NCBI GenBank assembly: GCA_022773945.1
Contig: JALFNS010000001.1
Coordinates: 1-50,595, forward strand
Origin: Clostridiales bacterium
GTDB taxonomy: Bacteria; Bacillota; Clostridia; Peptostreptococcales; Anaerovoracaceae
Length of the DNA: 50,595 nucleotides
Direction: 5' to 3'
The notes beneath the pieces are model-generated. The model was not told the DNA's origin, did no database searches, and worked only from the letters and a program-made list of their open reading frames with translations. Positions 38,167-50,591 of the stretch are shown here, in pieces. Position numbers and translations under genes: made by a program. How positions within the stretch are numbered: position 1 is the first letter of the stretch; every line of letters starts with the position of its first letter.

Positions 38167-38493
38167 TTACGCGTCTGTTGTTGTATCCTCAAACAGAATA
38201 CGCATGTAATCTCGGCGGGAATAAAGAAGACGATCAATATAAACCTCTGTACCATAGGCACGGTAAAAGCTTATATATTTGCCGCTTACGATAAAACGGT
38301 AGTCACTCTCCATGTTCGTTATGGATGAGAGTGGAGTTCCTATCTCTGCAAAGGTCTGCAAGATATGAAGGCTTTTGGTAATTTTGCGTACGGTTGCAAG
38401 TGCTGCAGATGGGTTTAACAGTTCGTCCTCGATATATGCCTTTATTTCAACAAGATCATTTTGTGCCTCCTTGGAAAAATGCAGGTTATTCAT
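38167..38493 (-). CDS. RelE/ParE family toxin
   Basis: A 108-aa protein of the RelE/ParE fold: MNNLHFSKEAQNDLVEIKAYIEDELLNPSAALATVRKITKSLHIL, then SDYRFIVSGKYISFYRAYGTEVYIDRLLYSRRDY. The ending IDRLLYSRRDYMRIL is the usual C-terminal core. These toxins cleave ribosome-bound mRNA or inhibit gyrase. It is translationally coupled (eight-base overlap) behind its antitoxin. It lies just outside the integrated element's left repeat. Confidence 0.88.
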   Translation of the reverse strand: MNNLHFSKEAQNDLVEIKAYIEDELLNPSAALATVRKITKSLHILQTFAEIGTPLSSITNMESDYRFIVSGKYISFYRAYGTEVYIDRLLYSRRDYMRILFEDTTTDA

Positions 38494-38740
38494 GGATAAT
38501 CCCGAGGCTCTCCTCCACGGCGTTCAAAGACAACCAGCCTTTCTCTTCTCCTGATTTGCGACCCTTTTCCAGCTCGCTTATTAATCGGAGCGTGGCTTGC
38601 GTTTTTTCGAAGTCCTGAATATCAAGAATGGCATATCTGCCGCGTCCGTTTTTTGTTAGAAATACAGGAGCGCCGACATCAACATCGCGAAGCACTTCGC
38701 TGTAGTTGCGCAAATCTGAAATAGGTTTGATGTTTGGCAT
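38486..38740 (-). CDS. Phd/YefM family antitoxin
   Basis: An 84-aa antitoxin with the Phd/YefM pattern IKPISDLRNYSEVLRDVDVGAPVFLTKNGRGRYAILDIQDFEK at the N-terminus (DNA binding) and an acidic helical C-terminus that should wrap the toxin. The promoter upstream contains two inverted repeats, fitting autorepression. Confidence 0.9.
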   Translation of the reverse strand: MPNIKPISDLRNYSEVLRDVDVGAPVFLTKNGRGRYAILDIQDFEKTQATLRLISELEKGRKSGEEKGWLSLNAVEESLGIIHE

Positions 38741-38854: not shown

Positions 38855-38965
38855 CAAAAAGTCGGGAGAGAGTCGGGAGAAACCGATTTTCAGCTGGATT
38901 TCGAGACATTAAAAAAGCTCGGAATCGTTGAAATTCCAAGCAGCAATACACGTTCGGGCTGCTAG
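38855..38965 (+). pseudogene. Fossil C-terminus of a second, related integrase
   Basis: Translated in this frame the stretch reads QKVGRESGETDFQLDFETL followed by KKLGIVEIPSS, colinear with the end of the intact integrase (QKVGRKSGNEEFSLDSEQI, KKLETVEISS). No integrase body precedes it; the upstream bases belong to the toxin-antitoxin promoter. It ends at a TAG (38963-38965). It is the trace of an earlier element that used the same attachment site, lying outside the present element's left repeat. Confidence 0.7.
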
Positions 38966-39059: not shown

Positions 39060-39098
39060 TGGCACCCCCACTCGGAATCGAACCAAGAACTAATCTTT
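39060..39098. repeat. Left attachment repeat (att core) of the integrative element
   Basis: A 39-bp sequence identical to 50517-50555. It is the 3' part of the tRNA-Arg(CCU) gene on the minus strand, from the anticodon arm to CCA (TTCGATT T-loop visible). No tRNA 5' half follows here, so it is a partial tRNA copy generated by integration and marks the left end of the 11.4-kb element. Confidence 0.93.
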
Positions 39099-39362: not shown

Positions 39363-39473
39363 TTAAAGATTAGAAATATCAACCCACAAAGCGGGACGAA
39401 TACCACGACTATCGATGCGTCTCTCTTCAAATTCTATTGTGCCGCCACACATCTTGCATTTTATTGCTGCCAT
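39363..39473 (-). CDS. 36-aa microprotein or deletion relic of a zinc-ribbon/TIR/DUF6273 gene
   Basis: Starts MAAIKCKMCGGTIEFEE, the zinc-ribbon start of the two TIR proteins, and runs in frame straight into RGIRPALWVDISNL, the last strand of the DUF6273 domain, with four residues between. It has a good ribosome site (AAAGGAG) and lies 12 bases after the HEPN-like gene, as the last gene of the operon. It looks like a third paralog from which about 700 codons were deleted in frame. Only one CxxC remains, so a full zinc ribbon cannot form in the monomer. Whether it is expressed for a purpose is unknown. Confidence 0.5.
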   Translation of the reverse strand: MAAIKCKMCGGTIEFEERRIDSRGIRPALWVDISNL

Positions 39474-39485
39474 GGTCTGCTCCTT

Positions 39486-40112
39486 TTATTTTTCTACTAC
39501 AAGGTTTGCTGCTTTGCGTACTTTATTTCCTTTTTTCAGGATTCTAATCTGACTGTCAATATAATCAGCATACTGTTTGCCTTCGACAGCTTTTTCCTCT
39601 AAATCACTGTAAAGACTTTCAATGTTCTTGTTCAGTGCGGCATGTATTACTTCGTTTCTGTAATCGCACCATTCTCGAATGTGATCAAGTGTCTCAAGCA
39701 AAGCCTGGGCATCCAGACTTTCGCATTGATTTTTAAGTGCTTTTGGGTATCTTTCTTCATAAACCTCGGCTGTTTCGCTGCTCCATCGAAGTATGGAGCG
39801 TACTACTTTTATCTTGCCAGAAATGTTCACAATACCTATAGAATCATTTTCTCCATCCCTTTTGTATTTACGCAAAATATCTTTTATTACAGTTTTTGTC
39901 CTTTGAGCATTAATTTTAAATGATTCCCTGTTAGCCAGTGCACCGGCATGGTACAGAAATGATCTGAGTCTATCTTCCAAAAGTGCATAGTCAATAAGCA
40001 TTGCTTCAAAGTAAAATCCATAATGCATGGCTTTCGCATAACGACCCTTCAGAGCTCTGTATGTTTCGTATTTCTCCTGATTGTTTTCAACCGGTTTTAT
40101 TTGTCTTGTCAT
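39486..40112 (-). CDS. HEPN-like domain protein
   Basis: A 208-aa all-helical cytoplasmic protein. The N-terminal helix pair (GFYFEAMLIDYALLEDRLRSFL) and, near residue 152, the motif RNEVIH within a helix (EWCDYRNEVIHAAL) fit the HEPN superfamily, whose RX4-6H motif forms an RNase active site in many toxins and defence effectors. No second domain is present. It lies 9 bases after the TIR-DUF6273 gene, so it is in the same operon. RNase activity is inferred from the motif; structural, non-catalytic HEPN proteins also exist. Confidence 0.7.
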   Translation of the reverse strand: MTRQIKPVENNQEKYETYRALKGRYAKAMHYGFYFEAMLIDYALLEDRLRSFLYHAGALANRESFKINAQRTKTVIKDILRKYKRDGENDSIGIVNISGKIKVVRSILRWSSETAEVYEERYPKALKNQCESLDAQALLETLDHIREWCDYRNEVIHAALNKNIESLYSDLEEKAVEGKQYADYIDSQIRILKKGNKVRKAANLVVEK

Positions 40113-40121
40113 TTGTTACCT

Positions 40122-42323
40122 CTATTTCAGCTTGCTTGTATCAATCCACAAAGCGGGGCGAATGCCATAGACATCGTGGTAGACCATGTCGCCGGGCGCA
40201 TAGACACCGCCACCACTAAGGACAGTGGCAGCGTCAGAAGCATCCCTGCCCGGCGACCGCAGCCACCACCAGCTATAACCACAATTGTCTACACATAGTG
40301 CTGTTGTCTTGGCATATTTTGTTCCTTCTGACTGTCTGTCATTATCTGATGAAAAATATTTTTCTACTTCTTCAATGGAAAGGAGGAACACTTTATCTTT
40401 TGTATTTTTACCACCATTCGTTCCGTATCCCTGGTTGTCTTCATTCTTTATGTTTGTCTCAAGAACTGCCTCCTTTTCTTTTTCAGTGAATGCGGTGCTT
40501 ATGAATTCTTCATTTAGCCATTTTCTCAGTGAGCAGTTTTCCCAAGTAATGCCACTCCATTCATCATTGTATGGCTTTGCATCAATGATTTTATCAGTGA
40601 TGATCAGTACTTTATTTCCATCTTTATCAAGCACTCTCCACTCAACAGGTTCTCCGCCGTATTCTCCGAAGGTGCCAATCGCTCCTGCTTCAAGATTAAT
40701 ATTTTCGAGTTTCTTACTGTTCGGTATTACTACCTGCGTAACAACCAGTATTGCGGCAACAATCACTACCAGCGCAGGAATCACAATTGCCAGTGCCTTC
40801 TTTGTTTTCTTTTTCTTTAGTTCCTTGGCTAGTCGTTTCTCTTCAGCTTCGCGCTCTGCTGCAATACGTTCTTCTTCAGCCTTGCGCTCTGCTGCAATAC
40901 GCTCTTCTTCGGATTTGCGCGCTTCTTCGACCTTGATGCCCTTAATTTTTTCCTGATACTTGGTTATAAGGTTATCTGTATCTTTGTATCCTCTGATTTC
41001 GCGTAGCTTCTTTATTGCCGTTTCGTAAGCTTCAACAGAATTATCTCTCGCAAGATTAACTGCCTCCGTATATATTTCATTCTTTCGTGCTTTTTCATTT
41101 CTGTCTTTTATATGTTTAATATATCCATCCAGTTCAGCTTTTAATTCTTCGCTGCCGAAGCGAACCACCTTAGCATAATTTCCACTGTAGTCATAAGGCT
41201 GTGAGCATTCTTTTAAGAGCGTCTTTTTCTTCGCCCTTTGCTCTGCCATAAGTTTTCCAAGATACGCCTCTGCATTTTCCGGATCCTGGTCGAGAACCTT
41301 TTCACAGTATTCATCAGCATCTTTCCAGTTTCCATCTTCTAAGAATATGAATGCACGCTTGAGGAGAGCTGCTGTGTTTGCATTTCCGCCGCCTACAACG
41401 ATCTCTTTGTTTTCCTCTTTCTTTTCCTCCGGTACAATTACCTTCTTGATTCCTCGAACCACATCGTTAATAAAACCGATCTTGCTCATGTCCTGTGCCT
41501 GCAGATGTGCAAATTCTTCAGGAAGTTCATAAGGATCCATGTCTCTGTAGCACGGGATAAGAAGTTTTGAACGGTCTTTACTCATAATCTTCAGGTATCT
41601 TGACCATTCATTCTTAACCCATACTGCGTTGAAGTATTCAGGCCTTGTTCCAATTGCCAGCATTACCTTGGCCGAATTTAGTGCGGCAAAAATATACGGT
41701 TCGTACTCCTGACCCAGCTTATCTTCCAGTGTTATTGCCGCATAGAACACCTTGAATCCCTCCTGCGTCAGCTGGTGATAGATATCGTTTGCAATTGCGC
41801 TGTCTACTGTTCTCTGACCTGCATCGTCGGTTTCCTTGTAGCAAATGAAGACATCATATGGCTTCTCATTCTGTGAGATTGCTATAATGCCTTTCTGGAT
41901 TTCTTCTATTGCCTTTGCTTCTGCCTCATAAATTGCCTGCTGTGAGATATCTGCATTTGCAATAGCTGCCTTGTAGTCCTCATCTGCCGTTACTGCATCA
42001 TAAGATGCCCTGTGACAGGTCGGAACTCTTTTAAATGTTGCCGGATCTTCAACATATTCGATGCCGTATTTACAGAGAACCATGCCCCAGTATGCCTCAG
42101 GATCTTTTGTCCTTACTGATGCGATTTTCTCATATATTTCACCGGCTTTATCAAACTCGCCTTTCATTCTCAGAACATTTGCTCTGTTATAGAGGCCCTG
42201 CACCTGTTCATCATTTTCGGAAGGCAGAGTCTGTTTCGTTCCACAGAACTCGCACTCACAGACTTTCGCGTTTTCTTCTACTTCCAGTGTGCCGCCGCAC
42301 ATCTTGCATTTGAATACTGCCAT
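40122..42323 (-). CDS. Zinc ribbon-TPR-TIR protein with membrane anchor and DUF6273 domain
   Basis: A 733-aa multidomain protein. Residues 5-33: zinc ribbon (CKMCGG, CECEFCG). 40-75: TPR-like helices. 155-285: TIR domain, beginning YDVFICYKETDD, with the likely catalytic glutamate E239 in WVKNEWSRYL. 315-365: TPR. 465-505: Lys/Glu coiled coil with repeated EERIAAER units. 509-533: one membrane helix. 548-731: DUF6273 domain (FGEYGGEPVEWRVL, CSLRKWLNEEF, WWWLRSPG, GIRPALWID), expected outside the cell. TIR domains of this class cleave NAD+ or signal through it. Topology suggests an outside sensor and an inside TIR effector (inference). Confidence 0.85.
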   Translation of the reverse strand: MAVFKCKMCGGTLEVEENAKVCECEFCGTKQTLPSENDEQVQGLYNRANVLRMKGEFDKAGEIYEKIASVRTKDPEAYWGMVLCKYGIEYVEDPATFKRVPTCHRASYDAVTADEDYKAAIANADISQQAIYEAEAKAIEEIQKGIIAISQNEKPYDVFICYKETDDAGQRTVDSAIANDIYHQLTQEGFKVFYAAITLEDKLGQEYEPYIFAALNSAKVMLAIGTRPEYFNAVWVKNEWSRYLKIMSKDRSKLLIPCYRDMDPYELPEEFAHLQAQDMSKIGFINDVVRGIKKVIVPEEKKEENKEIVVGGGNANTAALLKRAFIFLEDGNWKDADEYCEKVLDQDPENAEAYLGKLMAEQRAKKKTLLKECSQPYDYSGNYAKVVRFGSEELKAELDGYIKHIKDRNEKARKNEIYTEAVNLARDNSVEAYETAIKKLREIRGYKDTDNLITKYQEKIKGIKVEEARKSEEERIAAERKAEEERIAAEREAEEKRLAKELKKKKTKKALAIVIPALVVIVAAILVVTQVVIPNSKKLENINLEAGAIGTFGEYGGEPVEWRVLDKDGNKVLIITDKIIDAKPYNDEWSGITWENCSLRKWLNEEFISTAFTEKEKEAVLETNIKNEDNQGYGTNGGKNTKDKVFLLSIEEVEKYFSSDNDRQSEGTKYAKTTALCVDNCGYSWWWLRSPGRDASDAATVLSGGGVYAPGDMVYHDVYGIRPALWIDTSKLK

Positions 42324-42353
42324 GGTTTCCTCCTTGAAATACTGTTTATTGCT

Positions 42354-45050
42354 TTAATAAAGTGCGGCGGGTTTGCAGATATTGATACATTGACGGCAAC
42401 CATCGCAGTCTACACTTACAGATACAGCTTTTTTTGTTATATTGCGGGAATTCTCAACAAATGATATGGCATTTCTGGGACACAACTTGATACATGCTCC
42501 GCACCCGATGCATTTATCCAGATCAACATCAATAGCATTATTTTTTTCTGCAAGTTCATATAATGCTCCTCCGTATGCATCAAAATCGGCCTTTTGCAAA
42601 TCCACATACAATACGGGGTAAAATGCTTTTTCCAAAGTTACATGATTTCTTTCCCCTCTTTCAGCTTTATGTTGTTCAACAAGGTGTTCGCGTGATTTAG
42701 GAAATCCGATCATTTTGTATTGCCCCAATTTTGAATTATCAGACACATAGTCACTGTTCGGAATAGCACTATCTCTTAACCAGATTGCGTTATCATTATT
42801 AAATGTTCTACGTGAAGTATAACTTAGAAATTCCTGTTCGCTGAAAATTGCAATTTCTCGGATTATCATTTTCTTTTCTGAGTCGCTGAATGCTTCTTCA
42901 TAGAATTCGCCATTAAGCCAGTCATGTAATGTACTTGCCCGCCAATCTACAGATTCTGCTTTTTCATGGTACTGCATAGGTCCGAGGTGCCAATTTAAGA
43001 CAAGTTTCAGTTTATTTTTGCACTCTCCGCCTTGTTCCAGAATTTTCCACTCCAGAGTTCTATCATTATATTTCCCAAAATAAAATTTGGAAAAAGCAAT
43101 GCAGCCGCGACCTTCCCAAACCATTTTTTCCACAGGGAAATTGGCGGAAAACAATTTTGTGATTTCTTCTTCTTCTATTCTTTCTTCACACCAGGAAAGA
43201 GTACCGTTACATTGACTGATTCCCGGAATTGCATTCATTATTATCTCCACCCTGTTTTCGTTCTCTTTGATTTCCTTTTCTTTTACCGCTATAGATATAA
43301 TGTTTTTAAATGTCTGCAGTCGATTTGTTTTTTCGTTTAGCTGCTTACGTTTGTATTCTTTTTCCTTTTTTGCGAAAATGCCTAAAGTACTTATCTCCTC
43401 TTTAAGCAATGATATTTCCCGGAGCAGTTTTTTCGTTTCCTCATTTACTTCCTGAATGCTGCACTCATTTATCGAATGCCCCTTCAAACTATTTCGCAAT
43501 TCCGTTATTTCCTGCCTAAGTGAATCATTTCGCTCTTTTACTGCATCAATTGTATTGTTCATCTTGAGCAGTACTTTTTCTTTTCCTCCAAACGCTTCCA
43601 ACTGAACGGTTTCTCGTATCACATCAAGAGTTTTCCTTTGTTCCTGTTCTCTTTCCAGTATTTTTTCGTCACATTTTAAAGCCATCTCTTGGCAATCCTT
43701 GAAATCGCGCAGCCTTTCAAAATATTGTTTTGCATTTACATAATCCTTCTCTTCAAAGAGTTTCTTGCCAAGAGCGTAACCATTGTACTGTCTACAGTAA
43801 TCCGCATATTTGTTTATCTCTTCAATGTAGTTATTTCCACCAAATTTGGCTATCTTCTTATAATCCGGATCATCTTTTATCGAATCAATAGAATATATTT
43901 TTTTACTTCTAGGTTTTTCGCAAGTCTTAAACTCCATGACGGAATTCACCTGATAATGCGCCATGAATTTGTACAGATACGCCTCCCCGCTTTCAGGATT
44001 GATATTCAGTGCTTCTTCTGCAAACCGGTCAGCTTTTTCAAAATCCAGATCTTCCAGTGCCATGGCTGCCCTTTTCAGGAAAACACTAATATTTGCTCCT
44101 CCGACAACCTCTGCGGGCAGAACATCTGAGCCTTGATTTGGTTTCTTCCCCGCTTTATCAAGAATCTTATCAAGTCCTCGCATCAGGTCCTGAGTTGCAC
44201 CAACTTTGCCCATATCCTGAGCCTGGAGTTTTGCAAATTCCTTTGGCATGTCATATGCGTCAATATCTTTGAAACAAGGTATCAGGTATCTGTCCTTGTT
44301 CTTTGCCATTATTTTCAGGAATCTGCTCCATTCATTTTTTACCCACACAGCATTGTAATTATCATAAGATGTTCCAAATGCAAGCATAACTTTTGCTGAA
44401 TTCAATGCAGCAAAAATATACGGTTCATACTCTGTTCCAAGTTTGTCCTCAAGGCTGATGCGTGAAAAGAATACCCTGTATCCTTTTGCAGTCAGCGCAT
44501 CGTAAACGTCCTGAGCAATTACACTGTCAACTGTTCTCTGTCCGAGATCATCGGTTTCTTTATAGCAGATGAAAATATCGTACGGAGCTTCTTTGCCGGA
44601 TATCTCTATAATGCCCTTTCGTATTTCTTCAATCTGCTTAGCCTGTTCGCGATAAACAGTTCTGGAATATGTATCGGCATTTTCCATTACCATATCAAAA
44701 TCCTCATCCTCCATTATGCTGTCAAAGGATGAGCGATGGCATGTTGGCACTTTATCCCCTGTTACAGGATCGTCAACATATTCAATTCCATATTTGCAAA
44801 GCATAAGCCCCCAGTAAGCTTCTGCTTCCATGTCTGATTCTTCAATTATTCCTTCATATACTGTCGCAGCTTTGTCAAATTCACCGGCTATACGAAGCCT
44901 GTTTGCACGCTGATAAAGTTTTGCCATTTTCTCATTATCAACTTTAGGAACAGTCTGCTTAGACCCGCAGTATTCACATTCGCAGACAGACTGTTCGCCG
45001 TCTATGATATTAAGATCTCCGCCGCACATCTTGCATTTAAATACTACCAT
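42354..45050 (-). CDS. Zinc ribbon-TPR-TIR protein fused to a two-cluster ferredoxin domain
   Basis: An 898-aa paralog of the following gene. Residues 5-33: zinc ribbon. 45-75: TPR. 156-286: TIR domain starting YDIFICYKETDD, with E240 in WVKNEWSRFL as the probable catalytic glutamate. 320-365 and 425-460: TPR-like helices. 460-610: long coiled coil. 650-820: a degenerate DUF6273 domain (FGKYNDRTLEWKIL, STLHDWLNGEF, YPVLYVDLQK). 843-898: ferredoxin with CIGCGACIKLCP (C847, C850, C853, C857) and CDGCRQCINICKP (C882, C885, C888, C892), enough for two [4Fe-4S] clusters. No membrane helix. The redox domain on a TIR protein is unusual; a redox-sensing or electron-accepting role is inferred. Confidence 0.85.
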   Translation of the reverse strand: MVVFKCKMCGGDLNIIDGEQSVCECEYCGSKQTVPKVDNEKMAKLYQRANRLRIAGEFDKAATVYEGIIEESDMEAEAYWGLMLCKYGIEYVDDPVTGDKVPTCHRSSFDSIMEDEDFDMVMENADTYSRTVYREQAKQIEEIRKGIIEISGKEAPYDIFICYKETDDLGQRTVDSVIAQDVYDALTAKGYRVFFSRISLEDKLGTEYEPYIFAALNSAKVMLAFGTSYDNYNAVWVKNEWSRFLKIMAKNKDRYLIPCFKDIDAYDMPKEFAKLQAQDMGKVGATQDLMRGLDKILDKAGKKPNQGSDVLPAEVVGGANISVFLKRAAMALEDLDFEKADRFAEEALNINPESGEAYLYKFMAHYQVNSVMEFKTCEKPRSKKIYSIDSIKDDPDYKKIAKFGGNNYIEEINKYADYCRQYNGYALGKKLFEEKDYVNAKQYFERLRDFKDCQEMALKCDEKILEREQEQRKTLDVIRETVQLEAFGGKEKVLLKMNNTIDAVKERNDSLRQEITELRNSLKGHSINECSIQEVNEETKKLLREISLLKEEISTLGIFAKKEKEYKRKQLNEKTNRLQTFKNIISIAVKEKEIKENENRVEIIMNAIPGISQCNGTLSWCEERIEEEEITKLFSANFPVEKMVWEGRGCIAFSKFYFGKYNDRTLEWKILEQGGECKNKLKLVLNWHLGPMQYHEKAESVDWRASTLHDWLNGEFYEEAFSDSEKKMIIREIAIFSEQEFLSYTSRRTFNNDNAIWLRDSAIPNSDYVSDNSKLGQYKMIGFPKSREHLVEQHKAERGERNHVTLEKAFYPVLYVDLQKADFDAYGGALYELAEKNNAIDVDLDKCIGCGACIKLCPRNAISFVENSRNITKKAVSVSVDCDGCRQCINICKPAALY

Positions 45051-45059
45051 GGGTTCCTC

Positions 45060-45776
45060 CTACACTCTGTTTCTCTTATTCGCCATGCATTTCTGATTTC
45101 TCTCTTCAATCAGGCTGAGAAGTTCGCCGGTTTTACTTTCTATTGTTTCACCAGTTGCTCCGTTATCCATCAACACTCCAAGCTCGCTGATCTGCTTCAT
45201 TATCGCCCGTTCTTCCTGTGCAAAAGCCTCATCGCTTGTCAGGTCACTATACCTGATTGCATCATATATTTTCTTTGCTGCTGCTTTTGATTCTGCGGTT
45301 TGTGCTTTTGCCTGAAGGTGCTGCGCGTCATCAATCAGTTCCCGCATGAAACCTGTCTTTCTATTCAGTTCAGCGTTTGCTGCGACTGCGTTTTCTCCTG
45401 CTGCCTTTGTGCCAATCATAAATATTATTGAAAATACGAGAATTACCGCACATACGATAATTCCGATCCATGCCGGTACAAACGGAATTGCCATGCAAAT
45501 ACCGCCTGCTGCAGCCATAAGCAAAAGCTCAATAAAGCTGACCAGTACCATGGATGTTCTGATACGGCTCTGTTGCTTTTGCATAATGATAATCATGAAG
45601 ATCAGGTGTATGATGAATGCTGCGGTGATGAATCCGTAGCAGGGCCAGAATGCTCCGCTGTATTTATTGATACCGCCGACTTCTGACGGTATAACAAAGC
45701 ATATTACGTTAAACAGTGCCAGTAGGAGTACCCAGCATATAAGATAATATTTTCGTTCTTTATTCATTGTATTCAC
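45060..45776 (-). CDS. Four-helix membrane protein with cytoplasmic coiled coil
   Basis: A 238-aa protein with four membrane helices (residues about 11-29, 44-66, 76-96, 101-124) followed by a soluble helical tail that starts with Ala/Glu-rich repeats (AAGENAVAANAELNRKTG) and ends in a basic segment. Its helices resemble those of small membrane partners encoded next to SPFH proteins. It lies 12 bases after the SPFH gene and 9 before the TIR-ferredoxin gene, so it probably works with them at the membrane. I do not recognise a named family. Confidence 0.65.
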   Translation of the reverse strand: MNTMNKERKYYLICWVLLLALFNVICFVIPSEVGGINKYSGAFWPCYGFITAAFIIHLIFMIIIMQKQQSRIRTSMVLVSFIELLLMAAAGGICMAIPFVPAWIGIIVCAVILVFSIIFMIGTKAAGENAVAANAELNRKTGFMRELIDDAQHLQAKAQTAESKAAAKKIYDAIRYSDLTSDEAFAQEERAIMKQISELGVLMDNGATGETIESKTGELLSLIEERNQKCMANKRNRV

Positions 45777-45788
45777 CCCTTCTGTGAT

Positions 45789-47243
45789 TTACAGTTTGGT
45801 TCCGCATTCCGGACAGAATTTGGCCCCTGCTGCAATGTCTGCTCCGCAGTTAGGACACGTACTTGCCAGTGCCTGTCCGCAGTTTATACAGAACTTGCCG
45901 TTAGGAGTTTTCTGACCGCATGCCGGACATACAATTTCTGCTGCTGCAGGAGCCTCAATCTTTGTGCCGCATTCCAGGCAGAACTTGGCATTCGGAGGAA
46001 GCTGATTACCGCAGTTAGGACAGGTTTCTGCCTGCTGGGCTGCCGGTGCTCCCGGGGTCGCGTCTGATGCTCCCGGTGCAGGTGATGCCGGCATGGCCGG
46101 TGTTTCTCCTCCGAGGCCTTTCATCATGTTGCCCATTTGCGGAGCAATGTTATTCATTGCTGCCATGCCTACTCCAAGACCCATGAGGTCGCTCATCATT
46201 GAACCGCCACCGCCGCCGGATACGCTGTCAGGTCCCATATTTCCTATTCCTTCTGCATATGCTTTCTGTACTTCTGCCTGCAGTACATCTCTCTTGTTGT
46301 AGCCCTGAGCCTGCATAACTGCCGCTTCAGCCAAGCCTTCGAGCTGTGCAGCCTGAGCTTCTGCCTGAGCCTGTATAATCTTTCGCTCAGCTTCACGCTT
46401 CATAACCTCTGTCTCAGTTGTCTGTCCTTCAAGGATTGCCTCTCTCTGTGCAACTGTAATTTTTGCCTGAGCTTCTGCTTGTGCAGTCTTAACTTCAGCC
46501 TCTGCCTGAGCCATTCTCTGCTGGAATGAAATAGTGTGCAGTTCACGGAGTTTACGGAAGTTCGGATCGTCTTCAGGAAGAACAATGTTTGTCATATAAA
46601 GCTGAGGGATTGTCAGACCGTATTCCTCGAATCCCGGAATGATACATTCTCGCAGTCCTTCCGAAAGTTCTTCCAGATGCTGGTCAACGTCAACTATGTC
46701 TATGTTCTTGTTCTTGATTGCCACCGGCAGATTTGATTTTACTGCTGTAGTAATCAGCGGTCTAAATGATGCCTGCAGTGATTTTGTGAAGTCTGCAGGT
46801 TCTGCGCCCCATGCGATTCCCTTCATTGTTCCGACGAGGGTTATGAGCATTTTGCGTCCGTCTGAAATTGCCAGATTCATTTCACCGGAAGCTCCCAGTT
46901 CTACAGGAACTCCCATGGTTGGTTCTACAAATCTAACCTTCGAATCTGTTCCCCACTTCACTGCCATCTGTACGGTCTTGTTGATGAAGTAAACTTCGCA
47001 GTGGAATACACTTACTCCTGTAACAACGTTTATCATCTTGGACAGGAACGGAATATTCTCTGCGTCGAGTTTATATCGTCCGGGACCGAATGTATCGGCG
47101 GCCTGTCCATTTGCAAAGAATACAGCTTCCTGATTCTCATGAACAATCAGCTCTGTCATGTTGTTGAAATCTTCATTTGGATATTTCCAGATGAATGTTG
47201 AGTTATCGCCTTCGTATTTTATTGTTTCCGATATAATTCCCAT
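45789..47243 (-). CDS. SPFH (stomatin/flotillin-like) protein with C-terminal zinc ribbons
   Basis: A 484-aa protein of the YdjI-like 'virion core' SPFH type. Residues about 25-235 form the SPFH/band-7 domain; 240-330 is a long Ala/Glu/Gln coiled coil (AEAEVKTAQAEAQAKITVAQ) driving oligomers; a Gly/Met-rich linker follows; three double-CxxC zinc-ribbon modules end the protein (CPNCGNQLPPNAKFCLECG, CPACGQKTPNGKFCINCG, CPNCGADIAAGAKFCPECG). SPFH proteins scaffold membrane domains. As first gene of the operon with TIR and HEPN proteins it is likely the membrane platform or sensor. Ribosome site AGGAGG precedes the ATG. Confidence 0.88.
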   Translation of the reverse strand: MGIISETIKYEGDNSTFIWKYPNEDFNNMTELIVHENQEAVFFANGQAADTFGPGRYKLDAENIPFLSKMINVVTGVSVFHCEVYFINKTVQMAVKWGTDSKVRFVEPTMGVPVELGASGEMNLAISDGRKMLITLVGTMKGIAWGAEPADFTKSLQASFRPLITTAVKSNLPVAIKNKNIDIVDVDQHLEELSEGLRECIIPGFEEYGLTIPQLYMTNIVLPEDDPNFRKLRELHTISFQQRMAQAEAEVKTAQAEAQAKITVAQREAILEGQTTETEVMKREAERKIIQAQAEAQAAQLEGLAEAAVMQAQGYNKRDVLQAEVQKAYAEGIGNMGPDSVSGGGGGSMMSDLMGLGVGMAAMNNIAPQMGNMMKGLGGETPAMPASPAPGASDATPGAPAAQQAETCPNCGNQLPPNAKFCLECGTKIEAPAAAEIVCPACGQKTPNGKFCINCGQALASTCPNCGADIAAGAKFCPECGTKL

Positions 47244-47311: not shown

Positions 47312-47360
47312 GTGTCAACACGTATATATTTCCGCACAGAAAAACTTGCTTCTTAAAGCG

Positions 47361-47396
47361 TCTGTCTGTCTGTCTATCTGTCTGTCTATCTGTCTA
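47361..47396. repeat. Tetranucleotide repeat tract (TCTG/TCTA)n in the operon leader
   Basis: Nine consecutive four-base units, TCTG or TCTA, in the pattern TCTG x3, TCTA, TCTG x2, TCTA, TCTG, TCTA. Such tracts change length by slippage. It lies in the predicted untranslated leader of the SPFH operon, between promoter and start codon. Confidence 0.85.
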
Positions 47397-47452
47397 AACA
47401 TTGCCACTACTGGTTTCGCATTTGTCAATATGTTGTTACAATTTACATGTTT

Positions 47453-47481
47453 ATTTTACCTTATGTGAACAACGTTTACAA
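47453..47481 (-). promoter_or_regulatory. Probable promoter of the SPFH-TIR-HEPN operon
   Basis: On the minus strand TTGTAA (47481-47476), 17 bases, TAAAAT (47458-47453). A dyad formed by GTTGTTACA and TGTGAACAAC surrounds it and may be an operator. It would give a leader of about 200 bases. An alternative -35 (TTGACA at about 47437-47432) has no good -10 at the right spacing. The 427-base gap holds only this promoter, the repeat tract, the leader hairpin and the dnaC terminator. Confidence 0.55.
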
Positions 47482-47625: not shown

Positions 47626-47664
47626 AAAAAAATCAGAGAGGCAATCGCATTGTGACCGCCTCTC
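47626..47664 (-). terminator. Terminator of the replication genes
   Basis: GAGAGGC (47636-47642) and GCCTCTC (47658-47664) form a perfect stem; on the minus strand it is followed by TGATTTTTTT. It begins 7 bases after the dnaC-like stop codon and isolates the replication genes from the cargo operon. Confidence 0.85.
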
Positions 47665-47670
47665 CCACAT

Positions 47671-49261: not shown

Positions 49262-50557
49262 ATGGGATGGATTGAGAAGGATGGAACTAGATATTTCAGA
49301 TTTACGAAGACTGTAGGTCGCACCTTGAATAAAAATGGCGTTGAGGTTCCTGTTAAAAAGGAATTCTATGGTCGAACCAGGAAAGAAGCTGAGCAAAAGT
49401 ATCATGACTATGTTTCAAAGGCAACTGCCGGCTTATCAACAGACCGCCTGTATTTTGGAATACTGTCTGAAGAATGGATCAGCAGCTTTTTCATGCATGA
49501 CCCTAACTTGAAAGGCAGTACGAAAGCTCAATACCTGGCAAACTGGAACAGGATTATCAAGTCGGCCCCGTTCTATAATTATCCTTTGGATTCTGTTAAA
49601 CCCAAAACTATTCAAAGTCATTATAACAATTTAGCGGCTCAAGGCGTGCCTGGTGATTCTATTCGGCTGGCCAATCTCCTTATGAAACGTTTTTATAAAT
49701 ATGTGGAGGTTGAATCGCTTGGAAGAAATGTAACTGCCAGTCTTGTGATACCAAAAGCACAGCACACCGGTGAAAGTCAGGATATTGTTGTATGGGATGA
49801 TGATGAGATTCTTAAGATTTTTAATGGTTTTGATAAGGCAGATTCGCGGTTCAGATTCAAGCTGCTGATTGTTATTGCTTACTATACAGGCTGCAGAATC
49901 GGTGAGATACTCGGACTTACTTATGATGACATATCTGATAATACTCTGAGTGTTTCCAAACAACTTTCAAGAGATTTTGAACTGCTGGACGATGGAACGA
50001 CTAAGACTGTGTATAAGATTAACACACCTAAAACCAGAAATTCCATTCGCTTGATTCCACTTAATGAAAATGTCACAGCCGCACTTAATGAACATAAGGC
50101 ATGGCACTTTGAAGAACAGCTTAAGAACCACTACAAATCAGACTATATTTTCACTACTGCATCAGGCAAGCTTTATGATCCTACAAATATCCGCACAGCC
50201 CTAAACAGGTACTATAAGAAAATTGGTGTAGAGGCAAAGACAATTCATGCATACAGACATACTTTCGGTACAAATTTATGCCGTCAGGGTGTCCCGATTC
50301 AGACAGCTTCAAAGCTAATGGGACACGAGAGTATCAGTACGACTGCGCGATATTATGTTAATGTTTCACTGCCCGAAAAGGCGGCAGCTATTGCTGCTTT
50401 GCGTTCTCCTGAGGAAAACTGTGCTCAAAAAGTCGGGAGAAAGTCGGGAAATGAAGAATTTTCTCTCGATTCCGAGCAAATAAAAAAGCTTGAAACCGTT
50501 GAAATTTCAAGCTTATTGGCACCCCCACTCGGAATCGAACCAAGAACTAATCTTTAG
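49262..50557 (+). CDS. int: Tyrosine-type site-specific integrase
   Basis: A 431-aa recombinase. Residues 1-60: arm-binding N-terminal domain (IEKDGTRYFRFTKTVGR). 65-165: SAM-like core-binding domain. 175-380: catalytic domain with R212 (TGCRIGEIL), H329 and R332 (IHAYRH), H355 (LMGHES) and the nucleophile in TTARYYVNV (Y364). The last codons run through the att core, giving LAPPLGIEPRTNL, which is antisense to the tRNA-Arg 3' half; the stop codon is contributed by the tRNA sequence. It is located next to the tRNA, as usual for tRNA-targeting islands. The ribosome site is GTGAGG. Confidence 0.95.
   Translation: MGWIEKDGTRYFRFTKTVGRTLNKNGVEVPVKKEFYGRTRKEAEQKYHDYVSKATAGLSTDRLYFGILSEEWISSFFMHDPNLKGSTKAQYLANWNRIIKSAPFYNYPLDSVKPKTIQSHYNNLAAQGVPGDSIRLANLLMKRFYKYVEVESLGRNVTASLVIPKAQHTGESQDIVVWDDDEILKIFNGFDKADSRFRFKLLIVIAYYTGCRIGEILGLTYDDISDNTLSVSKQLSRDFELLDDGTTKTVYKINTPKTRNSIRLIPLNENVTAALNEHKAWHFEEQLKNHYKSDYIFTTASGKLYDPTNIRTALNRYYKKIGVEAKTIHAYRHTFGTNLCRQGVPIQTASKLMGHESISTTARYYVNVSLPEKAAAIAALRSPEENCAQKVGRKSGNEEFSLDSEQIKKLETVEISSLLAPPLGIEPRTNL
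50431..50449 (+). repeat. Putative right arm-type integrase sites
   Basis: Two AGTCGGGA copies 11 bases apart (50431 and 50442), inside the last codons of the integrase, 68 bases from the core. They match the left-end pair in sequence, spacing and strand. Function is inferred. Confidence 0.5.
50487..50514 (+). terminator. Hairpin next to the att core
   Basis: AAGCTTGAAA and TTTCAAGCTT form a perfect 10-bp stem. In the fossil copy at about 38917-38941 the equivalent bases change on both sides (GGAAT with ATTCC), keeping the pairing. It may be a structural part of the att site; it is inside the integrase reading frame, so a terminator role is uncertain. Confidence 0.4.
50517..50555. repeat. 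Right attachment repeat (att core), overlapping the tRNA 3' end
   Basis: Identical over 39 bases to 39060-39098. It spans the tRNA-Arg(CCU) gene from the 3' side of the anticodon loop to CCA. It is both the end of the integrase reading frame and the end of the tRNA gene, on opposite strands. Confidence 0.93.
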
Positions 50558-50591
50558 GAGAGATTTGTTATATCCATTTAACTATGAGGGC
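50517..50591 (-). tRNA. tRNA-Arg (anticodon CCU)
   Basis: On the minus strand a complete 75-base tRNA: acceptor GCCCTCA with TGGGGGT, D arm GTTA-AATGGATA-TAAC, anticodon arm AATCT-CTCCTAA-AGATT (anticodon CCT), four-base variable loop, T arm CTTGG-TTCGATT-CCGAG, discriminator G and encoded CCA. First acceptor pair is a G-U wobble. It decodes the rare AGG codon. The integrated element ends in its 3' half, restoring the gene. Confidence 0.95.

Follow-up and report, generated by a model that had tools for sequence, protein, structure and literature searches.

The bacterial TIR immune systems known to us sense infection inside the cell, and to our knowledge the nearest studied SPFH platform is the pspA-ydjGHI operon of Bacillus subtilis. 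Here we describe an operon encoding both TIR and SPFH proteins at positions 39363 to 47243, on the minus strand, of a 50,595-nucleotide stretch that we call the window (positions 1 to 50,595 of contig JALFNS010000001.1, assembly GCA_022773945.1, Clostridiales bacterium, Anaerovoracaceae). We hold with moderate confidence, from comparative sequence analysis, that the products of this operon make up a receptor system at the cell surface, serving immunity or self/non-self discrimination, in which one protein, TIR-B, would be a single-pass receptor with a lectin head; a defensive role, perhaps against phages, is probable. Among the literature matches listed, judged by title and the start of the abstract, the system was undescribed, with preprints outside PMC and most subscription journals lying beyond the reach of the search.

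Several described systems share parts of this layout. Thoeris resembles it in placing a TIR protein (ThsB) beside a separate effector gene (ThsA), and SIR2-like partners occur in sister operons of ours; unlike in Thoeris, the protein here combines zinc ribbon, TPR and TIR, mostly with a membrane helix and a head, and genes for SPFH and a membrane protein (MEM) are present. Against the NCBIfam model for Thoeris type III ThcB4, which has a cut-off of 220, TIR-B scored 20.9 bits (E = 1.3e-4) and its relative at locus L065 29.9 bits (E = 2.5e-7). PADLOC results for the window proteins included no Thoeris match, and the window operon has no ThsA-type effector, its HEPN-like partner lacking a ThsA match; on these grounds we place the operon outside Thoeris. 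In B. subtilis, the soluble SPFH protein YdjI, which has a zinc finger at its C-terminus, requires two partners in the membrane (PMC8581546), and the likeness lies in a soluble zinc-finger SPFH protein depending on membrane proteins of the same operon; pspA-ydjGHI, however, is without TIR, HEPN or SIR2, and Pfam shows no PspA in the proteins of the window operon.

In the diversity-generating retroelement (DGR) conflict systems of multicellular bacteria, C-type-lectin sensors are made by DGRs, some targets carry TIR, and the partners are MoxR, vWA or STAND NTPases (accessible portions of PMC10907252 and PMC7159879). TIR-bearing lectin targets are common to both, whereas the host here is a gut anaerobe rather than multicellular, the TIR domain is predicted to lie across the membrane from the head, and the Pfam matches of the window operon proteins include no MoxR, vWA or STAND NTPase; the word SPFH is absent from the accessible portion of PMC10907252 and occurs in that of PMC7159879 only within the reference list. 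Models in PMC10743442 give DUF6273 the fold of a C-type lectin, and the tentaclins and other phage DUF6273 proteins treated there likewise have such a head and a DGR variable repeat; unlike TIR-B they are, in the excerpt available, phage receptor-binding proteins without TIR. Animal Toll-like receptors share the single-pass layout, the cytosolic TIR and a binding ectodomain (leucine-rich repeats [LRRs] in 2 of 50 heads scanned here), but the order here is reversed, with TIR on the N-terminal side, and we do not claim common descent of the architecture.

Our open reading frame (ORF) list places five co-directional genes on the minus strand and, after them, an ORF of 36 codons; the gaps, in order from SPFH to that ORF, measure 12, 9, 30, 9, and 12 bases. 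The features are as follows.

45789-47243, minus strand: SPFH protein, 484 aa; Band_7_1 and C-terminal zinc ribbons, without a membrane helix; presumed platform
45060-45776, minus strand: MEM, 238 aa; about four helices; conserved C-terminal region RYSDPVS...ERNxxC
42354-45050, minus strand: TIR-A, 898 aa; zinc ribbon, TIR at aa 159-282 (E240), truncated DUF6273, C-terminal 4Fe-4S dicluster (ferredoxin tail), without a membrane helix; presumed cytosolic
40122-42323, minus strand: TIR-B, 733 aa; zinc ribbon, TPR, TIR at aa 158-280 (E239), TPR, membrane helix, DUF6273 head
40740-40796, minus strand: membrane helix of TIR-B, aa 510-528; lysines plus arginines (K/R), 9 before and 2 after
40140-40616, minus strand: DUF6273 (C-type-lectin type) head of TIR-B, aa 570-728 (Pfam); presumed outside
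40146-40268, minus strand: stretch of TIR-B matching the variable repeat of retroelement-bearing relatives; NNY at 12 of 14 mutable positions
39486-40112, minus strand: HEPN-like protein, 208 aa; R152-N153-x3-H157; presumed RNase effector
39363-39473, minus strand: 36-codon ORF; TIR-type zinc-ribbon start fused to a DUF6273 end; remnant of a third TIR/DUF6273 gene

The SPFH protein belongs to the SPFH/Band 7 family by its Band_7_1 score (121.9 bits against a cut-off of 24) and is 77% identical to the copy in G033, the other TIR-bearing genome of the genus. No Pfam family matches MEM above cut-off; a hydropathy script finds 3 helices in the window copy and 4 in each of 8 relatives' MEM proteins. 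In Pfam, TIR_2 is above cut-off in both TIR-A and TIR-B, DUF6273 is full in TIR-B and partial in TIR-A, and the 4Fe-4S dicluster ends TIR-A. The initial annotation had six co-directional genes spaced by 9 to 30 bases, and the operon and its spacing stand; the sixth gene does not, because its TIR-type zinc-ribbon start is joined directly to a DUF6273 end, which makes it a remnant rather than a functional gene.

A scan of genome contigs found 374 relatives, 77 of which, selected by TIR similarity, were analyzed as loci; most have Clostridia-type titles, some are Erysipelotrichaceae or Solobacterium, and many have gut or rumen titles. Because L028 is near-identical to the window island (99.4% identity over 11.8 kb), it was excluded from locus counts, leaving 76 loci. 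Within 6 kb of the TIR gene and on the same strand, SPFH is present in 50 of these, MEM in 49, and both in 46; in the 48 loci with at least 4.5 kb of upstream sequence, the corresponding counts are 35, 32, and 32. We also searched 393 genomes, sampled evenly across the class, with TIR and MEM profiles, which matched 24 and 31 of them, respectively. The two occur together in 16 of 393 genomes versus 1.9 expected (hypergeometric 1e-14), and in 15 of the 24 TIR-bearing genomes MEM and TIR share a contig and are no more than about 10 kb apart (partial MEM matches included). In G033 the order is SPFH-MEM-TIR/DUF6273, followed by a SIR2-like protein (SIR2_2, 17.8 bits, under the 24.5 cut-off) in place of HEPN. 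These comparisons show an operon family with an SPFH-MEM-TIR core, a swappable extra gene and a swappable head on the TIR protein. The proposed co-occurrence of the five families stands for SPFH and MEM with TIR (46/76 loci, 15/24 class genomes), whereas among the relatives analyzed the exact set recurs only in the L028 island. With whole TIR-A as query, matches were dominated by ferredoxins.

Some kin extend beyond this core. Loci L108 to L112 have SPFH-MEM without TIR, together with three-helix zinc-ribbon proteins. On two short contigs without a TIR match (L115 and L116), MEM is fused to a DUF6273 head behind SPFH, which looks like a TIR-less version of the platform. L120 (G416) and L121 (G376) encode divergent zinc-ribbon/TIR proteins of 1478 and 933 aa in operons with more zinc-ribbon, coiled-coil, or weak SPFH/MEM-like genes, perhaps a wider family.

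Head swapping was assessed in the 110 of 130 TIR matches that had long profile coverage and at least 480 aa; after removal of L028, 108 proteins remained, 57 with a DUF6273 head and 51 without, and 50 of the latter were scanned by Pfam (L058, which contains X, was left out). RCC1 repeats form 14 of these 50 heads and BspA-type LRRs 2; WG, Flg_new, MORN, YARHG, and RHS have one member each, and the remainder show TPRs alone or nothing. Stand-alone RCC1-repeat proteins also occur within operons (L030, L045, and kin), as if heads were also made separately. The ferredoxin tail of TIR-A, part of the gene set named in the initial annotation, is found in no other locus (regex over the 108 proteins, Pfam on the 50 heads). 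Partner genes vary as well: of 20 scanned, 5 have a Pfam family above cut-off, namely HEPN_RiboL-PSP (L029), RCC1 (L030, L045), SIR2_2 (L049), and DUF4760 (L057), and HEPN pEK499_p136 falls under cut-off in two more (L070, L085). Members of the window HEPN family also occur in L030, L033, L072, and L074, and members of a SIR2-like partner family in L044, L048, L063, and L099. HEPN, proposed at first as the RNase arm of the system, is one of several interchangeable partners.

The predicted placement of the heads derives from a single membrane helix. Among the 110 long TIR proteins, the hydropathy script found one helix in 76, two in 4, and none in 30. In all 76 single-helix proteins the helix lies C-terminal of the TIR domain (in one protein, at L074, directly at the TIR end), and in each of the 46 that carry DUF6273 it lies ahead of the head. 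When K/R are counted over 15 residues on either side, the flank before the helix has more of them than the flank after it in 74 of 75 cases, one being equal (L028 left out; means, 6.6 versus 1.8). By the positive-inside rule, the positively charged flank of a membrane helix is its cytosolic side, so that the TIR side is predicted to be cytosolic and the head outside; in TIR-B, the TIR domain would lie inside and the DUF6273 head outside. An extra helix stands ahead of the head in the MEM-DUF6273 fusions (L116 with 5 helices, L115 with 4 found), which fits an outside head, provided that MEM proper has four helices. TIR-A should be cytosolic because it has a truncated DUF6273, a ferredoxin tail, and no helix; that the ferredoxin supplies redox input is speculation.

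LRR_5 and Flg_new are usually surface domains, and their presence among the heads, together with the charge bias at 74 of 75 helices, makes it quite unlikely that the system is a cytosolic TIR defense of the Thoeris kind, simply anchored to the membrane, in which a DUF6273 head inside would sense phage proteins and a HEPN or SIR2-like effector would respond. Such a defense would nevertheless accommodate the pairing of TIR with partners of the SIR2-like or HEPN type, the existence of soluble proteins such as TIR-A, the ThcB4 matches of TIR-B and L065 (weak, and far under the 220-bit cut-off), and the DGR targets predicted to be cytoplasmic in the available text of PMC10907252.

The DUF6273 heads further bear a signature of retroelement diversification. 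In these heads, hypervariable positions are interspersed in a common conserved frame, WWLRSPG...AA.V...G.V...G..V......VRPALWI. At L065, a TIR-helix-DUF6273 gene is followed by Avd (bAvd, E = 9e-9, 36.2 bits against a cut-off of 40, slightly under it), then by a template repeat and by an open frame for a reverse transcriptase (RT); the L037 RT, an RVT_1 match, shares 87% identity with this frame. The variable repeat of L065 differs from its template at 20 positions over 96 bases, 20/20 at template adenines; at L141 (genome G093) there are 21 differences over 110 positions, 21/21 again at template adenines. Repeat pairs differing only at template adenines identify DGR targets within the family. 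The L141 DUF6273 gene is cut by the contig end, G093 also has a truncated SPFH-MEM-x-TIR on another contig, and a link between this gene and a TIR protein is likely; of the two relatives, it is the target at L065 that is surely a TIR receptor. Avd and RT also stand beside a TIR/DUF6273 gene at L037, where the variable repeat reads N, and broken or partial Avd or RT genes occur at L060, L088, L093, and in G033 (L048).

Of 64 DUF6273 matches, 56 were aligned (L028 and short ones dropped) and 55 entered an entropy test (L065 left out). Columns at the 14 AAY codons of the L065 template have a mean entropy of 3.55 bits, versus 1.51 at 31 other columns, which include a few beyond the template end (Mann-Whitney p = 1e-6). 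Pyrimidines fill 83% of third positions at 19 hypervariable columns versus 44% at 27 variable columns outside the repeat; within it the figures are 84% at the 14 AAY columns and 62% at the 31 others, and part of the excess seen at mutable positions is shared by the variable repeat in its entirety. The DUF6273 family as a whole carries what we read as the mark of DGR diversification, though few members have an adjoining DGR. Of the 393 class genomes, 17 have the DGR RT clade, and in several cases it adjoins a DUF6273 gene in a short locus that has no TIR match; at L123 to L125, L129, and L130 it stands beside DUF6273 genes with no TIR match within roughly 4 kb, suggesting that the clade also serves targets other than TIR receptors. 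Window TIR-B has NNY at 12 of 14 positions (P = 0.002 against the gene background of 45%), and this signal reaches only P = 0.05 against 62% because the variable-repeat background is itself that rich in pyrimidines; at most, TIR-B would keep a weak fossil mark of diversification. The searches found no DGR RT in the genome of TIR-B, whose own copy now stands without a retroelement; the sole RT gene there (contig C39; RVT_1 match) is 21.5% identical to the DGR RT, was rejected as a DGR RT, and from its sequence is probably the maturase of a group II intron.

Partners of the HEPN and SIR2 types are found more often in anti-phage systems, and we regard as very unlikely a contact, adhesion, or kin-recognition system in which the heads would bind bacteria or the host surface and the TIR/HEPN arm would serve strain competition. 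The many gut and rumen titles among the relatives would suit that role, as would the report that the targets of cellular DGRs mostly appear anchored in the membrane, with binding on the outside (PMC8144416, a source whose main text, in the part available, does not contain the word TIR).

The candidate catalytic residues are conserved. The TIR glutamate (E239 in TIR-B, E240 in TIR-A), which the initial annotation noted as kept, is present in 112 of 112 aligned TIR domains. It aligns with the WxxxE motif of flax L6 TIRs, whose glutamate we take to be the catalytic residue, and this position, together with the TIR_2 matches, places both proteins in the TIR family; among solved structures, the TIR profile matches a TLR15/TLR2 entry best (E = 2.7e-6). 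The TIR domains are candidates for NAD processing. In the HEPN-like protein, the RNEVIH motif noted at the outset holds up: R152, N153, and H157 are invariant in 5 homologues that share 15 invariant columns, and R152-N153-x3-H157 fits the RX4-6H pattern. No family model, Pfam included, matches this protein above cut-off, and its putative HEPN assignment draws on the motif and a weak Csx1/Csm6 match (PADLOC, E = 0.003). Two PDB matches were set aside, one of the HEPN-like protein at chance level (E = 0.11) and the only one of the DUF6273 head, to an IgA protease (E = 0.01).

The invariant glutamate weighs against an envelope-stress or surface-sensing system of the PspA/YdjI kind, in which TIR would be a non-enzymatic scaffold and the heads would bind cell-wall or dietary ligands. 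We consider such a system unlikely, as HEPN- and SIR2-type partners, hypervariable heads, island location, patchy distribution, and the lack of PspA among the operon's Pfam matches also speak against it; it draws support from the TIR-less SPFH-MEM-zinc-ribbon kin at L108 to L112 and from YdjI, the soluble zinc-finger SPFH protein with two required membrane partners (PMC8581546, in part).

We favor the immune receptor reading because of the partner types, the hypervariability, the island location, and the patchy distribution. SPFH and MEM would form a membrane platform. The cytosolic part of TIR-B would comprise the zinc ribbon, the TPRs, and an NAD-processing TIR, and beyond its one membrane helix the C-type-lectin DUF6273 head would bind a phage or cell-surface ligand outside; in relatives, RCC1, LRR, or other repeats fill the head slot, and a DGR can hypermutate the lectin head. 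Ligand binding would cluster receptors on the platform, the TIR domains would then consume NAD or produce a nucleotide signal, and a swappable effector would act, a HEPN-like RNase here and SIR2-like proteins in sister operons. TIR-A, presumably cytosolic and with a ferredoxin tail, may be a second, internal TIR branch. We infer the order of events, the HEPN activity, and the signal to the HEPN or SIR2-like partner. The initial annotation's picture of a membrane platform with TIR and HEPN arms is in part upheld, although it missed three things: a membrane helix that would place the head of TIR-B outside, the fact that DUF6273 is of lectin type, and the signature of a retroelement in related loci.

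Several observations weigh against this reading. TIR-A and the other helix-free proteins make up 30 of 110 TIR proteins, and 4 single-helix ORFs have fewer than 60 residues beyond the helix; the topology is derived from the hydropathy script and the charge bias, which agree. Neither SPFH nor MEM is found in 13 of the 48 loci with enough upstream DNA, and the SPFH-MEM core has TIR-less kin resembling envelope sensors. In the first scan only 1 of 64 DUF6273 matches had a template repeat, and the window genome is without a DGR RT, having no match to it at 1e-50. The HEPN fold is without profile support, hhalign against HEPN_RiboL-PSP kin not being significant, and 15 of the 20 partner genes scanned have no Pfam family above cut-off.

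A bolder form of the proposal, which we advance tentatively as a possibility, is surface immunity in the style of Toll-like receptors, in which single-pass receptors on an SPFH platform, each with an enzymatic TIR domain in the cytosol and a retroelement-hypermutable antigen-binding head outside (C-type lectin, propeller, or LRR), would act through exchangeable effectors (HEPN RNases, SIR2-like NADases), giving an anticipatory, antibody-like repertoire coupled to cell suicide. If the receptor reading is right, the operon would be a bacterial counterpart of Toll-like receptors on a mobile island of a gut bacterium, and bacteria would gain a surface pattern-recognition layer and a diversifying receptor repertoire. 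The purpose of cellular DGRs in gut Clostridia, and whether receptor-type TIR signaling arose in bacteria as well as in animals, would become testable, and the SPFH-MEM core offers a handle for finding more members, with 374 relatives recovered in one scan.

Two exact copies of a 39-bp repeat delimit the island that carries the operon; its features are as follows.

39060-39098, plus strand: att repeat, left island end; exact 39-bp repeat
50517-50555, plus strand: att repeat, right island end; within the tRNA-Arg(CCT) gene 50517-50591
49262-50557, plus strand: tyrosine integrase of the island (ORF and Pfam)
47360-47395, no strand assigned: tandem repeat of GTCT in 9 copies, with promoter-like sites upstream of it and the operon start downstream

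Between repeat and operon are the integrase, a small ORF with a sub-threshold helix-turn-helix match, DUF6291, and an IstB-like ATPase. The repeats, one of them inside the tRNA gene, the integrase, and the patchiness of the TIR family (2 of 49 genomes of the genus) bear out the tRNA-borne island first proposed. Its start moves: position 39363, given initially as the start of the region, belongs to the remnant ORF, and the island itself begins at 39060. Isolation of the operon by a terminator on one side and the island end on the other is supported at the island end by the repeat at 39060, whereas terminator-like hairpins (47635-47665 and 38917-38941) belong to a total of 13 such matches versus 8.3 (sd 2.7) in shuffles, a modest excess. 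In viral contigs, 43 pattern stretches were found and none was confirmed as a relative; the plasmid and phage collections yielded 2 records apiece, with matches confined to the end of TIR-B that holds DUF6273.

Compared with L028, the window island shows 59 substitutions, 48 in TIR-B (N-terminal half, within 41460-42267), 10 in TIR-A, and 1 in the remnant, with zero in SPFH, MEM, the HEPN-like gene, and the variable repeat; the TIR-B cluster looks like a recombination patch between TIR genes. The GTCT tract, upstream of SPFH and downstream of promoter-like sites at 47440-47481, is a possible phase-variation tract. Just beyond the island, at 38167-38740, two small overlapping genes resemble by eye a ParE/RelE-type toxin and its antitoxin, a candidate pair.

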